Shown: positions 8,361 through 17,890 of the stretch, piece by piece | How positions within the stretch are numbered: position 1 is the stretch's first letter | How the letters are laid out: each line of letters opens with the position of its first letter | NCBI GenBank assembly: GCA_030657355.1 | Contig: CP131056.1 | Span: 1,384,501-1,448,500, forward strand | Length of the DNA: 64,000 bases | DNA from: Radicibacter daui | GTDB taxonomy: Bacteria > Pseudomonadota > Alphaproteobacteria > Radicibacterales > Radicibacteraceae | Reading direction: 5' to 3' | Translations under genes and position numbers: made by a program | The notes under the pieces: generated by a model | Database searches by the model: none | Told to the model about the DNA's origin: nothing | Seen by the model: the letters and a program-made list of their open reading frames with translations, nothing else

Positions 8361-9764
8361 ATGCCGCAACTGCGCCTCAACAATACGCTGACCCGCCAGC
8401 TTGAAACCTTCACGCCCATCGATCCGGCGAATGTGCGTTTTTATGGCTGCGGTCCGACGGTTTATGACACGGCGCATCTCGGCAATGGTCGCGCGATGGT
8501 GGTCTATGACCAGTTCTACCGCGTGCTGAAGGCGCTTTATCCCGGCGCCGTCACTTTCGTGCGCAATCTCACGGACGTAGACGACAAAATCATCGCCCGG
8601 GCCGATGAAAGCGGGGAGAGCATCCGCTCCATCACCGAGCGTACAACGGCGGCTTTTCATGCCGATGTGGCAGCACTCGGCTGCTTGCCGCCGGATATCG
8701 AGCCGCGTGCCACCGAGCATATCCCGCAGATGATCGCCATGATCGAGCGGCTAATCGAGCGCGGCCATGCCTATGCCGCTGAAGGGCATGTGCTGTTCTC
8801 CGTCCCCTCCATGCCCAACTACGGCATGCTGTCGCGCCGTGACCGCGAGGAGCAGATTGCCGGTGCCCGTGTGGATGTCGCGCCCTACAAGCGCGATCCG
8901 GCTGATTTCGTTTTGTGGAAGCCGAGCGATACGCCGGGCCAGAGCTGGCCGAGCCCCTGGGGTTCGGGCCGCCCCGGTTGGCATATCGAATGCTCCGCCA
9001 TGTCGGAGGCGCATCTGGGGGAAGTGTTCGACCTGCATGCCGGCGGGCTCGACCTCATCTTCCCGCATCATGAGAACGAGATTGCCCAGTCCGCCTGCGC
9101 GCATCACGGCCAGCCGCATGCCCGCTACTGGGTGCATAACGGCTATCTGATGGTCGAAGGCGAGAAGATGTCGAAGAGCCTCGGCAACTTCTACACCGTC
9201 GCCCAGCTGCTGGAGGAAGGCTGGCAGGGCGAAGCGCTGCGCCTGACGCTGCTGGCCGCGCATTATCGTGCCCCGCTCGATTTTACCCGCGATGGCTTTG
9301 CCCAGGCCAAGGCGGCGCTTGACCGTTGGTACGGTGCGCTGCGTCAGGCCGGGGTGACGGGTGAGGGGATGATGGCGCCGGATGAGGCGGCACGTATGGC
9401 TCCGCCGGCGGTGCTGGAAGCCCTGTGCGAGGACCTCAACACCCCGCTTGCGATTGCTGCCCTGCATGAGGCGGCCGGCGCGCTCAACCGCGCCCAGGAT
9501 GCGGGCGAAAAGCAGGAACTGGCAACGGCGCTCAGGGCCGGCGGCCAGCTCATCGGCCTGCTGGCCGCAGACCCGGAGAGCTGGTTTACCGGGGGCGACA
9601 CTGGCGGCCTCGACGCTGCTGCGATCGAGCAGCTAATCTTGGACCGGGCAGCCGCCCGCAAGGCGAAGAATTTTGCCGAGGCGGACCGGATCCGCGGTGA
9701 ACTGGAGGCAGCAGGAATTGTTCTCGAGGACGGGGCGCAAGGTACGCTCTGGCGGCGGGTTTAA
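8361..9764 (+). CDS. cysS: Cysteine--tRNA ligase
   Basis: Class I synthetase charging tRNA-Cys, 467 residues. Diagnostic parts are FYGCGPTVYDTAHLGN (zinc-ligand Cys plus the HIGH equivalent HLGN), GWHIECSAMSEAHLG, HAGGLDLIFPHHENEIAQS with further zinc ligands, and GEKMSKSLGNF as KMSKS. The DALR-type and C-terminal parts are present, so the gene is complete. Its last 47 bases overlap the start proposed for the downstream lipoprotein gene in another frame. Confidence 0.96.
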   Translation: MPQLRLNNTLTRQLETFTPIDPANVRFYGCGPTVYDTAHLGNGRAMVVYDQFYRVLKALYPGAVTFVRNLTDVDDKIIARADESGESIRSITERTTAAFHADVAALGCLPPDIEPRATEHIPQMIAMIERLIERGHAYAAEGHVLFSVPSMPNYGMLSRRDREEQIAGARVDVAPYKRDPADFVLWKPSDTPGQSWPSPWGSGRPGWHIECSAMSEAHLGEVFDLHAGGLDLIFPHHENEIAQSACAHHGQPHARYWVHNGYLMVEGEKMSKSLGNFYTVAQLLEEGWQGEALRLTLLAAHYRAPLDFTRDGFAQAKAALDRWYGALRQAGVTGEGMMAPDEAARMAPPAVLEALCEDLNTPLAIAALHEAAGALNRAQDAGEKQELATALRAGGQLIGLLAADPESWFTGGDTGGLDAAAIEQLILDRAAARKAKNFAEADRIRGELEAAGIVLEDGAQGTLWRRV

Positions 9765-10620
9765 GGGGCTTTTTCGCGGCGGCTTGCTGGCCTGCGCGGC
9801 GCTTTTGAGCGCTTGCGTTGCTGGTGGCGGCTGGGCTCCCGTCAATGTCGCCATCGCTCCTGATCCGGCGGTCAACGCCGTGCGCGGGTATGAGAGCCTT
9901 GATGCGCGCGGCTTTGCCGAGGCGCATGCGTTGCTGGATGCCGCGGCGGCCCAATACCGGCAGAATGGCGATGTAGAGGGAGAGGTCGCGGCGCTTTACG
10001 GGCGCGGGCTTGCCTCCGCCCGTGCCGGGCGCAACCGCGAGGCGCTCGACACCTACGTGCAGGCACTTCACCTCATGGACGGGGGGCGACGCTATTTAGG
10101 ATGGTCGGCCTATCTGAATCTTGCTGTAGCCGAGATTGCGAGAAAGGGCGATGCTGTGGAGCACGCGCTTTCCTTTTGCACTCGTGGCCGTAACTATCTC
10201 GCTGAAATGAGTGCCTATGACAGAGTGCGGCAGGCTGATCTTTATTGCCTCGATTTGGCATTAAGCCTGAAACGCGACAAGGAAGCAGACGATCTTCTCA
10301 AAGGGTTAGTAGAAGATGCCCGGCGTGACGCCGGGCCGCTTGAACTGGCGCAGGTCATGGTACGGGCCGGTATCCGGTCCTCCGTCGATGCGCCCGAGAA
10401 GGCGAAGAAGACGCTGCAGACCGCCGCGCGCCTGTTTTCTGTGGCAAATGATCCTTTGGCTGCGGATCAGGTGCATAAAATTCTTGGCCGTGTCGGTCGT
10501 AACATCGATCCATTTGACGGTGGTGTTGCGCGGATGCCGGAACCCGAAGGTTCTAGTGATCCACTGCTGTTGGCCTGCTACATGGAAAAAGACGCTGTGG
10601 TCTGCCCGTCCGGCGCGTGA
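9718..10620 (+). CDS. Putative TPR-like lipoprotein
   Basis: Function unknown. The chosen TTG at 9718 has a GGAGG ribosome-binding site nine bases upstream (9704-9708) and gives a clean lipoprotein signal: basic N-terminus (FSRTGRKVR), hydrophobic LLACAALLSAC and a lipobox LSAC, after which the mature protein would begin at Cys. The rest (about residues 60-230) is helical with TPR-like repeats, for example AEAHALLDAAAAQYRQNGD and ALYGRGLASARAGRNREAL. It is probably anchored to a membrane facing the periplasm and holds protein partners. The gene overlaps the cysS 3' end by 47 bases. Base composition becomes somewhat less GC-rich in its second half than in its neighbours. Confidence 0.75.
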   Translation: MFSRTGRKVRSGGGFKGLFRGGLLACAALLSACVAGGGWAPVNVAIAPDPAVNAVRGYESLDARGFAEAHALLDAAAAQYRQNGDVEGEVAALYGRGLASARAGRNREALDTYVQALHLMDGGRRYLGWSAYLNLAVAEIARKGDAVEHALSFCTRGRNYLAEMSAYDRVRQADLYCLDLALSLKRDKEADDLLKGLVEDARRDAGPLELAQVMVRAGIRSSVDAPEKAKKTLQTAARLFSVANDPLAADQVHKILGRVGRNIDPFDGGVARMPEPEGSSDPLLLACYMEKDAVVCPSGA

Positions 10621-14220: not shown

Positions 14221-14835
14221 ATGAGCAAGCGTCTTAACGCCAAGCATAAGATTGACCGCCGCCTTGGCCTGAACCTCTGGGGCCGTGCCAAGAGCCCGCT
14301 CAACAAGCGTGAAGGTGGTCCCGGCCAGCATGGCCAGCGCCGCAAGAAGCCGTCCGACTTCGGTATCCAGCTCTCTGCCAAGCAGAAGCTGAAGGGCTAC
14401 TACGGTAACATCGGCGAAAAGCAGTTCCGTCGTTATTACGACGAAGCCGTGCGTCGTCGTGGTGACACCGGCGAGAACCTGATCGGCCTGCTCGAGTGCC
14501 GTCTGGACGCCGTCGTCTACCGCATGAAGTTTGCGTCGACCGTGTTCGCCGCCCGCCAGACCGTCAACCATGGCCACATCAAGGTTAACGGCAAGCGCGT
14601 CAACATCGCTTCCTACATGGTCAAGGAAGGCGACGTTATCGAACTGCGCGCCGCCATGAAGGAAAACGTTGTGGTCATGGAAGCCATTGCTTCCGGCGAG
14701 CGTGACGTTCCGGATTACCTCGATGTCGACCACAAGGAGCTCAAGGGCACCTTCGTGCGCGTTCCGGCCATGGCCGACGTGCCGTACCCGGTCAGCATGG
14801 AACCGAACCTGGTTATCGAGTTCTACTCGCGCTAA
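14221..14835 (+). CDS. rpsD: 30S ribosomal protein S4
   Basis: Primary assembly protein that binds 16S rRNA in the small subunit; 204 residues, the standard length. The N-terminal part [14 protein letters not shown] and [15 protein letters not shown] are typical of the alphaproteobacterial S4. The S4 RNA-binding domain (about residues 93-155) includes [15 protein letters not shown] and [14 protein letters not shown]. The gene stands alone with its own promoter, a structured leader and a strong terminator, away from the S10/alpha operons, which is the usual arrangement in this class. Confidence 0.98.
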
Positions 14836-14916: not shown

Positions 14917-14953
14917 AAAAAAAGCCGCCCCTTTTTCAAGGGGCGGCTTTTTG
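14917..14953. terminator. Bidirectional intrinsic terminator
   Basis: AAAAAGCCGCCCC and GGGGCGGCTTTTT form a long perfect stem with A and T runs on both sides, so it can act in both directions. It lies between rpsD and the convergent methyltransferase gene, whose stop is at 14973. Confidence 0.9.
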
Positions 14954-14972: not shown

Positions 14973-16631
14973 TCAGCTCTCAATGCGGTCGAGATAGATG
15001 TGCACCGAGGTGCGGTCATGTTCGGCCACCAGCCAGACGGTCTGGCCCTTGGTGAGCGCGACCGACTCCGGGAAGGCGTGGAACATGTGCGCCCAGCCGG
15101 AAGCCGGGTTCGGCAGGTCCGGATGGTTCTCGAACACCTCGTCTTCCAGCTGCAGGCGGATCCACTGCACCACGCCCTGGCAGCGCCCGGTCTCGGTCAC
15201 GGTCACGGCGATCTGCCGTGTTTCGGCCGGGAAGTAGGGGGCACCGGCAAAATCGAAATCGAAGATGTCGAGATCGTCGGAATAGCGCGAATAGGGGTAG
15301 TTGCCGCGGCGGATGGAAAAACGCAGCGGTGAGAATTCATTGAACGGGCTGATGTCGAAGCCGGCCGCCTCATGCGCGAAGGTGCGCAGCTCCAGATCGT
15401 CGCCACCGGCGAGGAAGGCGCAAACCGCGCCGGCCGAAGGGATGATGCGCCCACCGGACTTCACGAGGCGGCCGCGCGCATCTTCCATCGCTGGCAGCAC
15501 GCCTTCACCCAGAAGGTCGGAGGAGAGAATTTCGGAGACAAGCACGTCCGCCGGGGCCGGCATGTCCTTGCCGATGATCACATCGTTGGACTTCTTGCCG
15601 ATAACGGTGACGCGGTCGGCAAAGCCGTTGCGCTCGACGATCTCGCGCGCCTTGTCGGCCACCACCGTCACCATTTCGCAGCTGGTCACGGCTTTGGCGC
15701 CGGCGCGCGCCGACATCATGGCCAGCAGGCCGGCACCGGTGCCGATATCCAGCACGCGTGTTTCCGGCCCCACCGCCTTGCGGATCGCCCGCTCATAGGC
15801 CTGGTTGCGGAAAGCGTCGTTCATCATCGGGAAGTGCCAGGCCGGCACCACCTTGCCCAGGGCCTGACGCAGGCGGGCGGTTGCCACCAGATGGCCCGGC
15901 GCGAGGGCGAGGGCGCGGCGGAAGCACTGCGCCGCCTCGTCCACCTTGTCGAGCTTGGCCAGCACCGTGCCCTTGTTGACGATGGCGTCGACATAATCGG
16001 GCCGGAGCATCAGCGCATAGTCGAAGGATTGCAGCGCCTTGTCGTCATCGCCCAGCAACTGGTGCACATGGCCCAGGTTGTTGACCGCCTCGGCATGGTC
16101 ATGGCGCAGGGTGAGGGCGTTGATGAAGCAGGTCTTGGCATCGCTGATGCGGCCGGCGGCCACCAGACAGGCGCCAAGATTGTTGTGCACCTCGGCCGAG
16201 CGCGGCATCAGCGGCAGCGCAAGGCGGAACTGCACTTCCGCGCCGATGCTGTCGCCGCCCGCCTGCAGCAGGCAGCCCAGATTGTAGATGGCTTCGCCAA
16301 ACCCGTTGTCGAGCGAGTAGGTCGCGCGGAAGGCCGTTTCGGCATCCTTGAGCCGGCCCTGCCGCCACAGCGCCATGCCCAGATTGTTGAGCGCCAGCAC
16401 ATAACCTGGCCTGAGGTTCAGGGCAGCGCGGAATTCCGTTTCGCTGGTCTGCCAGTCTTCCTGCTGGAAGGCGAGGGTGCCGAGCAGATAATGGATGTCG
16501 GGCGCCTTGGCGTGCGCGGGCAGCAGGCTGCGATAGGCCGCTGCCGCCTCAATTACCCGTCCGTCCCGGTGCAGGTCCATCGCCCGCTTGAGAGCGATTT
16601 CCGGCTGGGCGGCGCTGGTTTGTTCGTTCAT
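14973..16631 (-). CDS. TPR-repeat protein with PRMT7/PRMT9-like arginine methyltransferase domain
   Basis: A 552-residue fusion. Residues about 10-265 are six or seven TPR repeats (such as NNLGMALWRQGRLKDAETAF), a partner-binding solenoid. Residues about 275-552 are an S-adenosylmethionine methyltransferase of protein-arginine-methyltransferase type: AWHFPMMNDAFRNQAY before the fold, motif I VLDIGTGAGLLAMM (about 291-304), the two-glutamate loop SEILSSDLLGEGVLP (about 366-380), then a beta-barrel with GVVQWIRLQL and WAHMFHAF (about 511). These resemble eukaryotic PRMT7 and PRMT9; PRMT9 also has N-terminal TPRs. The presumed product is a methylated arginine on an unknown protein. No signal peptide. 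It is convergent with rpsD and isolated from rarD by about 150 bases. Confidence 0.82.
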   Translation of the reverse strand: MNEQTSAAQPEIALKRAMDLHRDGRVIEAAAAYRSLLPAHAKAPDIHYLLGTLAFQQEDWQTSETEFRAALNLRPGYVLALNNLGMALWRQGRLKDAETAFRATYSLDNGFGEAIYNLGCLLQAGGDSIGAEVQFRLALPLMPRSAEVHNNLGACLVAAGRISDAKTCFINALTLRHDHAEAVNNLGHVHQLLGDDDKALQSFDYALMLRPDYVDAIVNKGTVLAKLDKVDEAAQCFRRALALAPGHLVATARLRQALGKVVPAWHFPMMNDAFRNQAYERAIRKAVGPETRVLDIGTGAGLLAMMSARAGAKAVTSCEMVTVVADKAREIVERNGFADRVTVIGKKSNDVIIGKDMPAPADVLVSEILSSDLLGEGVLPAMEDARGRLVKSGGRIIPSAGAVCAFLAGGDDLELRTFAHEAAGFDISPFNEFSPLRFSIRRGNYPYSRYSDDLDIFDFDFAGAPYFPAETRQIAVTVTETGRCQGVVQWIRLQLEDEVFENHPDLPNPASGWAHMFHAFPESVALTKGQTVWLVAEHDRTSVHIYLDRIES

Positions 16632-16778
16632 CGAGTTACCGACATCCGGCTTTTGAATCGGGGTTTTGCGCGAACCTTGCCCGACATGCCCGGGGTGCGC
16701 AAGGCACCATACTGCCGCTGACAGTGTTGTGATAGCGGGTCGGACTATTTGTGTATGTGGCGGCCACCAGCCGGCGTT

Positions 16779-17717
16779 TCAGCGTGCCGGTGCCGCCGCC
16801 ACGACCGCGCGGGAGCTGGCCCGCACCCCGTCCCAGCAGAAGATGGCGATACCCACCCAGATGAGAGTGAAGGTTACGGCATGGGCGGGTGTGAATGTCT
16901 CTTCAAAGACCAGCACCGCCAGCAGGAAGGAGAGTGTCGGCGTCAGATATTGCAAGATGCCGATTGTAGAGAGGCGAAGGCGCGCGGCTGCCATCATGAA
17001 GCAGACCATCGGGATGGCGGTGACAGGGCCGGCCAGCATCAGCATGCCGATACCGGTGCCGGAAAAATGGCTTTGCCCCGACCAGTGCAGCCATCCGATA
17101 TAGCCAAGGGAAAGCGGGAGCGCGATCAGGGTTTCAATGAAGATCCCGACGGTGGGGTCAATGCCGTATTTCTTGCGCACCAGCGCGTAGAAGCTCCACG
17201 ACGTGACCAGCGTCAGCGACACCCAGGGCAGCCCGCCGGCGGCAATGACCATCACGCTGCAGCCGCCAAGAGCGAGCACGACGGCGCCGGCCTGCGCAAA
17301 GCGCAGCTTTTCGCCCAGCAGCAAAACGCCCAGCACGACCAGCACCAGCGGCGTCAGGTAATAACCAAGGCTGGTTTCCAGAAGACGATTGTGCCCGGTA
17401 GCCCAGATGAACACGCCCCAGTTGGTAGAAATGAGGAGCGTGGTGATGATATAGACCGGCCAGCGACGCGGACTTGTCAGAATCACCCGCGTCTCTCCAA
17501 GGCGGCCGGACCATGCCACCATGGCGAAAAGGATCAGGAAGGACCACACAACCCGGTGGGCCAGAATTTCCAGCGCCGGTACAGAAGCCATGGCGTGGAA
17601 ATAAAGCGGGGCGGGGCCGCCCCAGAACAGAAAGGCAGCAAGACCAAAGGCAAGGCCAGCCCGGCTGCGGGCCAGTTGATCGGGAACAGGGGAACCGGCA
17701 ACGGTCGCGGACGACAA
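16779..17717 (-). CDS. rarD: RarD-type EamA/DMT superfamily permease
   Basis: Inner-membrane protein of 312 residues with about ten transmembrane helices in two EamA halves. The segments EILAHRVVWSFLI and NWGVFIWATGHNRLLETSLGYY (read in two parts) are typical of RarD, whose substrate is not established. A TTG at 17717 was chosen: it has GAGGAG nine bases upstream (17727-17732) and gives a RarD-like N-terminus. A longer frame starting with another TTG at 17768 has no good ribosome-binding site. It diverges from the histidine kinase gene. Confidence 0.88.
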   Translation of the reverse strand: MSSATVAGSPVPDQLARSRAGLAFGLAAFLFWGGPAPLYFHAMASVPALEILAHRVVWSFLILFAMVAWSGRLGETRVILTSPRRWPVYIITTLLISTNWGVFIWATGHNRLLETSLGYYLTPLVLVVLGVLLLGEKLRFAQAGAVVLALGGCSVMVIAAGGLPWVSLTLVTSWSFYALVRKKYGIDPTVGIFIETLIALPLSLGYIGWLHWSGQSHFSGTGIGMLMLAGPVTAIPMVCFMMAAARLRLSTIGILQYLTPTLSFLLAVLVFEETFTPAHAVTFTLIWVGIAIFCWDGVRASSRAVVAAAPAR

Positions 17718-17890
17718 GGCTAGGAGCTCCTCGAGGGGGAATAATCGCCCCGCCGGTGACGCTAGCAATGCAGGCCCCTTGCGGTGAACTTGAATATTGT
17801 CGCCTTACATTAGAACATAACCGTCTAACGGATTAGCACTCGGCGCCCGGCACTGTCCCCGGCATGGCCGATGCGGAATGGGCAGGGTGA

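Follow-up and report, generated by a model that had tools for sequence, protein, structure and literature searches.

The gene on the reverse strand at positions 14973..16631 of the window, i.e., the entire 64,000-nucleotide stretch of DNA analyzed here, encodes a 552-residue, single-module TPR-PRMT that resembles PRMT7 and PRMT9, and is probably a SAM-dependent protein arginine N-methyltransferase that acts on a substrate captured by the TPR repeats to generate mono- or symmetric dimethylarginine. The fusion of TPR repeats to a PRMT at this position, proposed in a preliminary description of this DNA, was indeed found, in the form of a single intact ORF, reading from ATG to TGA, in which a complete PRMT module follows seven TPR repeats. 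The codon-position GC values of this ORF (0.68/0.44/0.84) follow the pattern of a real gene. By contrast, a 449-residue ORF on the opposite strand (15372-16721) presents values of 0.82/0.45/0.70 and, as such, looks like a shadow of the TPR-PRMT gene. The gene is present in one copy in the 5.06-Mb, two-contig genome, rated as 100% complete, with the nine other matches to the protein in this genome all falling on the TPR part.

Slicing the N-terminal part of the protein at a period of 34 residues gave seven TPR repeats of equal length (residues 10-247; 15891..16604, reverse strand, as are all parts of the protein given below), matched by Pfam TPR_2 at 1e-31 and appearing as seven helix pairs in the predicted model. 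In that model, a capping helix (residues 248-259; 15855..15890) lies at the junction of the TPR array and the methyltransferase. The PRMT module, comprising a Rossmann part and a beta-barrel, covers residues 262-552 (14976..15848), as delimited by profile, model and fold matches.

The residues of the module were considered in an alignment of 98 bacterial and seven eukaryotic domains. The 98 bacterial rows, which are not independent, some coming from close relatives, comprise 28 from two genome samples (after removal of the broken copy L035 and of hits that did not reach 1e-40) and 70 from a scan of named genomes, from which ORFs of less than 200 bits or less than 200 profile positions, type-I-like ORFs included, were excluded. 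The WHxxMxNDxxRN signature, WHFPMMNDAFRN (residues 265-276; 15804..15839), has WHFIMLNDTKRN as its PRMT9 counterpart in a phmmer alignment from the PDB; in the bacterial rows, H266 and R275 are found in 98/98, W265 and D272 each in 95/98 and N276 in 90/98. Motif I, VLDIGTGAGLL (residues 293-303; 15723..15755), the site of SAM binding, contains G297 and G299, both present in every bacterial row, and G301, present in 97 of the 98. E319 (15675..15677), at a position occupied by Glu in 97 bacterial rows as well as in each of the six eukaryotic rows listed, is presumably the acid that holds the SAM ribose. Finally, the double-E loop, SEILSSDLLGEG (residues 366-377; 15501..15536), offers E367 and E376, nine residues apart, both of which align with Glu in six eukaryotic PRMTs. 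E367 is found in 97 of the bacterial rows and E376 in 82; the second catalytic Glu is, therefore, absent from 16/98 relatives, such that the family may contain other chemistries. In 12 of the 98 homologues (L011, L014, L016, L045 and others; e.g., SELINVGMLAPNML), position 376 is Pro, with the SAM-binding residues being retained. Across the 98 bacterial rows, H266, R275, G297, G299 and S348 are invariant, the last being common to PRMT7 and PRMT9 and absent from PRMT6 and PRMT8.

The beta-barrel part, with its strands seen in the model, spans residues 400-552 (14976..15434) and includes VVQW (residues 487-490) and SGWAHMF (residues 511-517). As such, the motif I, two-Glu loop and C-terminal barrel earlier claimed for this protein were each located. 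The WAHMF segment claimed together with them is present as well, although it occupies the site of the THW loop, with Thr and His replaced to give SGW. In this THW-loop equivalent, SGWAH (residues 511-515; 15087..15101), W513, found in 96/98 bacterial rows, is kept and the His is replaced by Gly. Position 512, that of the THW His, is His in 59 of the 98 bacterial rows, Gly, as here, in 15 and Cys in 10; in human PRMT9, this position is also Cys.

The placement of the protein was addressed by searches of the PDB and Pfam. With the methyltransferase part alone as a phmmer query, PRMT7 (8.8e-35) and PRMT9 (8.2e-31) were the best PDB matches, at values that exclude chance. When a profile of 18 bacterial domains was used, mouse PRMT7 was matched with 310 bits (1e-91), PRMT9 with 279 and 276 bits (4e-82), worm and trypanosome PRMT7 with approximately 207-209 bits, and PRMT1, PRMT2, PRMT3, PRMT6, PRMT8, CARM1 and a plant PRMT at 1e-44 to 1e-32, with at most 155 bits, all among the best 60 of 76 matches. 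In Pfam, the window protein matched TPRs and generic methyltransferase cores, the strongest core being PrmA (1e-9). PRMT_C (PF22528) was matched by 38 of 52 family members and not by the window protein at E 0.01. A profile search that placed the domain outside the PRMT family had been named beforehand as grounds for dismissing the assignment; the domain instead falls inside this family. Accordingly, profile, predicted fold and residues together point firmly to the window protein being a member of the PRMT family, and the earlier claim of nearness to PRMT7 and PRMT9 is borne out by sequence profile, fold and trees. Of the tandem modules that mark the PRMT7/PRMT9 branch, the window protein has a single one, which runs to its C terminus; for want of the other, it is not assigned here to PRMT9 or to animal PRMT7.

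An AlphaFold2 model of the monomer, built from an alignment of 52 sequences (pLDDT 95.7; pTM 0.88), contains fourteen helices arranged as seven pairs, followed by the capping helix, the Rossmann part and the barrel. In a Foldseek search with this model, bovine PRMT9 was the top match (429 columns), followed by T. brucei and mouse PRMT7. In VIA-align comparisons, PRMTs overall gave Z values of approximately 28 to 32 over some 280 to 320 residues, with T. brucei PRMT7 at Z 32.2 (rmsd 3.2; 312 aligned), human PRMT9 at Z 30.9 (rmsd 2.3; 287 aligned) and type I enzymes at Z of about 28. For the predicted model, PRMT7 and PRMT9 thus come out ahead of the type I enzymes, if not by much. Bovine PRMT9 aligned with model residues 112-552 in a loose fit (393 aligned; rmsd 5.2) and, as the alignment begins at residue 112, covers part of the TPR array. 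The likeness of the TPR part to that of PRMT9, suggested before, accordingly finds backing in this alignment as well as in profile and trees.

Like the window protein, human and bovine PRMT9 carry TPR repeats ahead of the PRMT module, a WHFxMLNDxxRN signature and a GEG double-E loop, and lack the THW His, having Cys where the window protein has Gly. Whereas PRMT9 has a second, degenerate module, the window protein consists of seven TPRs and one module, and the two share 22-24% identity. In the case of PRMT7, the mouse enzyme gave the best sequence-profile score with the bacterial family and the T. brucei enzyme the best structural Z with the window model. The alignments of the matched PRMT7 chains, however, are confined to the PRMT part, most of them starting at or beyond model residue 220, and identity is 24-29%. 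Mouse and worm PRMT7 hold two modules, as opposed to the one of the window protein; Trypanosoma PRMT7, as described in PMC8399567, likewise comprises one module.

In a 56-row tree, PRMT7, PRMT9 and the bacterial family fell on one side of a branch with support of 100/99, the other side bringing together eukaryotic PRMT6 and PRMT8 with five other bacterial PRMTs. The window protein lay within a bacterial clade of 16 rows (100/100). A single clade of all eukaryotic PRMTs was rejected, both with the 56 rows (p 2.4e-6) and with 51 rows (p 2.3e-4), the latter set lacking five of the 56, of which four were long branches. In the unconstrained trees, PRMT7 and PRMT9 were scattered among bacterial rows, with weak inner supports around both in the 51-row tree. 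One clade of all bacterial PRMT7/9-like rows was not rejected (p 0.42 with 56 rows; p 0.31 with 51 rows) and, as such, the trees are compatible with PRMT7 and PRMT9 being either nested within the bacterial family or sister to it; one clade of the five eukaryotic PRMT7/9 rows was likewise not rejected (p 0.31 with 56 rows). It is conceivable, if on balance doubtful, that bacteria hold both great PRMT branches and that the eukaryotic PRMT7/PRMT9 lineage descended from a bacterial TPR-PRMT. Were this the case, TPR-guided protein arginine methylation would be an old bacterial system inherited by eukaryotes. The origin and duplication of PRMT7 are said in PMC8399567 to be a topic that 'warrants further investigation', and the existence of single-module, TPR-bearing bacterial relatives of PRMT7 and PRMT9 bears on both.

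Homologues were found in eight bacterial phyla, namely, Pseudomonadota, Thermodesulfobacteriota, Cyanobacteriota, Bdellovibrionota, Bacteroidota, Actinomycetota, Acidobacteriota and Kiritimatiellota, with many coming from MAGs. The description of PRMTs as mainly eukaryotic hence needs to be qualified. In a first set of 58 genomes, 20 contained a match at 1e-3, nine of which reached 1e-40. In a sample of the class, 37/289 genomes matched at 1e-8, the weaker of which need not be orthologues, and in a sample of the phylum, with scoring limited to the top five candidates of each genome, 25 of 398 genomes matched the profile at 1e-25. A scan of named genomes confirmed at least 174 relatives among 585 candidate stretches, of which 80 were kept; the four lowest (L132-L135) corresponded to the SAM-binding part only. 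Among the 72,556 plasmid records of PLSDB, 16 contained a match, with 12 of the best 15 of these 16 being longer than 200 kb, while none of 50,697 phage records contained a match to the TPR-PRMT. Using a profile built from the seven repeats of the window protein and a cut-off of 1e-4, TPRs were detected in 38 of 78 PRMT-like ORFs (a set that includes the query and a few type-I-like ORFs, and in which 75 have a testable N-terminal part), showing the arm to be common, not universal; its length also varies. In six homologues, identity was 31-38% in the TPR part and 41-49% in the methyltransferase part. Together, these results define a gene family for study that spans several phyla, retains the PRMT catalytic residues and in many members has a TPR arm. 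Few descriptions exist of bacterial arginine methylation; Rv1988 is a mycobacterial arginine methyltransferase. A 2021 paper speaks of 'increasing evidence' for arginine methylation in prokaryotes (PMC8466066). In the literature listings on bacterial PRMTs and their origin that were examined, which covered few subscription papers, no paper on bacterial TPR-PRMTs was found.

Several variants were encountered in the course of these surveys. In Tistlia consotensis, two TPR-PRMT genes lie side by side in the same orientation (L101:6357-8861 and 8872-10305). A 3.1-Mb contig of a Kiritimatiellae MAG encodes a 691-residue protein with two tandem PRMT modules (L117:7050-9122), of which the first has neither the glycines of motif I nor the two-Glu loop and the second is complete. 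This is the reverse of the order described for PRMT7 and PRMT9, where the first module is active. In L029 (G033:C3:105062-105742), a PRMT-like domain lies within an open frame of approximately 2200 residues that also contains sequence resembling an adenylation domain, with similar matches seen in G161 and G259. Five bacterial PRMTs are type-I-like (L126, L127, L128 and L130, each at about 7.7-9.0 kb, and L131:6357-7361), three having a SEW(L/M)G..E loop and three having THW. When profiled together with L121, the five had PRMT6, PRMT8 and PRMT1 as top PDB matches. Bacterial PRMT-like L030 gave two matches only in a PDB search.

Within the window, the TPR-PRMT gene converges on rpsD, encoding 30S ribosomal protein S4 (14221..14835, forward strand; NCBIfam rpsD_bact, 1.2e-73). 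Between the two lies a terminator-like hairpin with a T run (14928..14943) that would be usable from both sides, one of three sites found in the region as compared to a shuffle mean of 1.5, which alone is weak evidence. Upstream, on the same strand and after a gap of 147 bp, is a gene encoding a RarD-type EamA transporter (16779..17768, reverse strand; NCBIfam rarD, 9.7e-56). The scanned neighbors (rpsD, trmJ, rarD and others) are, accordingly, ribosomal, tRNA-methylase and transporter genes. To compare neighborhoods, genes were clustered using a codon-position filter against shadow ORFs in GC-rich DNA. No recurrent partner of the window gene was found in 76 named-contig loci and the window, a 77-locus clustering in which many recurrent neighbors come from close relatives (Actinomadura, Azospirillum), nor in 49 loci, the window included, chosen as being alphaproteobacterial (L076 and L080 among them coming from a bacterium of uncertain name). 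Against the 48 other neighborhoods of this second set, three of the near neighbors of the window gene each had a single direct match, with no others being matched.

Given the family and residues described above, protein arginine methylation by the window protein can reasonably be inferred. The superhelix of seven TPR repeats would capture a protein partner and present its arginine to the PRMT module, where motif I and E319 would bind SAM, and E367 and E376 would grip the guanidinium. The product is most likely mono- or symmetric dimethylarginine, not the asymmetric form, since the double-E loop is of the PRMT7/9 type (SEIxxxxLxGEG) rather than the type I form (SEWMGYxxxxESM). Self-association might stand in for the missing second module. 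The profile and fold matches, the conserved catalytic residues, the TPR arrays in the PRMT-like ORFs and the single genome copy favor this explanation, against which are to be weighed the Gly at the THW His position, the lack of a PRMT_C match at E 0.01, the 16 relatives devoid of the second Glu and the absence of a conserved neighbor that would indicate a substrate.

The main rival explanation holds that the substrate of the window protein is free arginine or some other small guanidino molecule, with the TPRs serving assembly or localization only. Such activity is known from SznE/StzE, a bacterial enzyme that methylates the guanidino group of arginine to give free N-methyl-arginine, used by SznF in streptozotocin synthesis, as stated in PMC11705231, and a low-identity relative of SznE led to the saskemycin cluster, according to a preprint. 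SznE/StzE resembles the predicted TPR-PRMT in being bacterial and in targeting the arginine guanidine; it acts, however, on free arginine, and the window gene lacks such a biosynthetic neighborhood. In 13 of the 77 neighborhoods, all actinobacterial, the homologue is found within approximately 8 kb of a member of one shared gene family, the one scanned copy of which was assigned to Haem_oxygenas_2 (1.2e-22), a domain of the type found in SznF. Nine of these 13 loci (L089:5897-7360 and 12 others) also place the homologue near a second family, the scanned copy of which is an ATP-grasp protein. These loci are possible natural-product clusters around a methylated guanidine. Some bacterial relatives, therefore, probably act on small molecules, and a division in which the 13 actinobacterial members are small-molecule enzymes and the TPR-bearing members protein modifiers is probable. 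It is these actinobacterial members that action on free arginine fits better than it does the window protein. None of the 13 presents a clear TPR array (L089 and L110 being borderline, at 7e-4 and 1e-3), as compared to 38 of the 78 PRMT-like ORFs; the window region is not among these 13 loci and contains no haem-oxygenase-like neighbor, its near neighbors do not recur beyond the single matches noted above, and the PRMT9 fold match extends into part of the TPRs. As such, action of the window protein on free arginine is considered fairly unlikely.

Also unlikely is that the window protein retains the PRMT fold and no longer methylates arginine, acting instead as a TPR scaffold or upon another type of residue. 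Replacement of the THW His is in line with such a change, as is the loss of the second Glu in 16/98 relatives, which points to changes of chemistry having occurred in the family. The window protein, however, retains the SAM-binding residues as well as the two Glu, and in the six homologues compared, the catalytic part is better conserved than is the TPR part. Finally, some family copies bear the label of PrmA, which methylates ribosomal protein L11, including four of the best 15 of the 16 PLSDB plasmid matches ('L11 methyltransferase' or '50S ribosomal protein L11 methyltransferase'). PrmA is a source of automatic annotation here: Pfam PrmA matches all 52 family members scanned, in addition to the window protein itself, and PrmA indeed shares the Rossmann SAM-binding part. 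Yet the prmA model matched the window protein with 34-35 bits, over positions 157-258 of 288, i.e., the SAM-binding part only, whereas a stronger PrmA candidate at C1:3236897-3237580 of this genome scored 129 bits over positions 65-287. Both fall below the prmA cut-off of 183, exceeded in only four of 14 control genomes, such that the cut-off alone settles nothing. With its match limited to SAM binding, a better candidate elsewhere in the genome, and PRMT-type features in its double-E loop, its barrel and its PDB profile matches, identity of the window protein as PrmA was rejected, its likelihood being next to nil.

Elsewhere in the genome, one 292-residue ORF (G000:C1:2688621-2689253; L158:1261-2139) belongs to the arginine-deiminase superfamily and could be a methylarginine-degrading enzyme.
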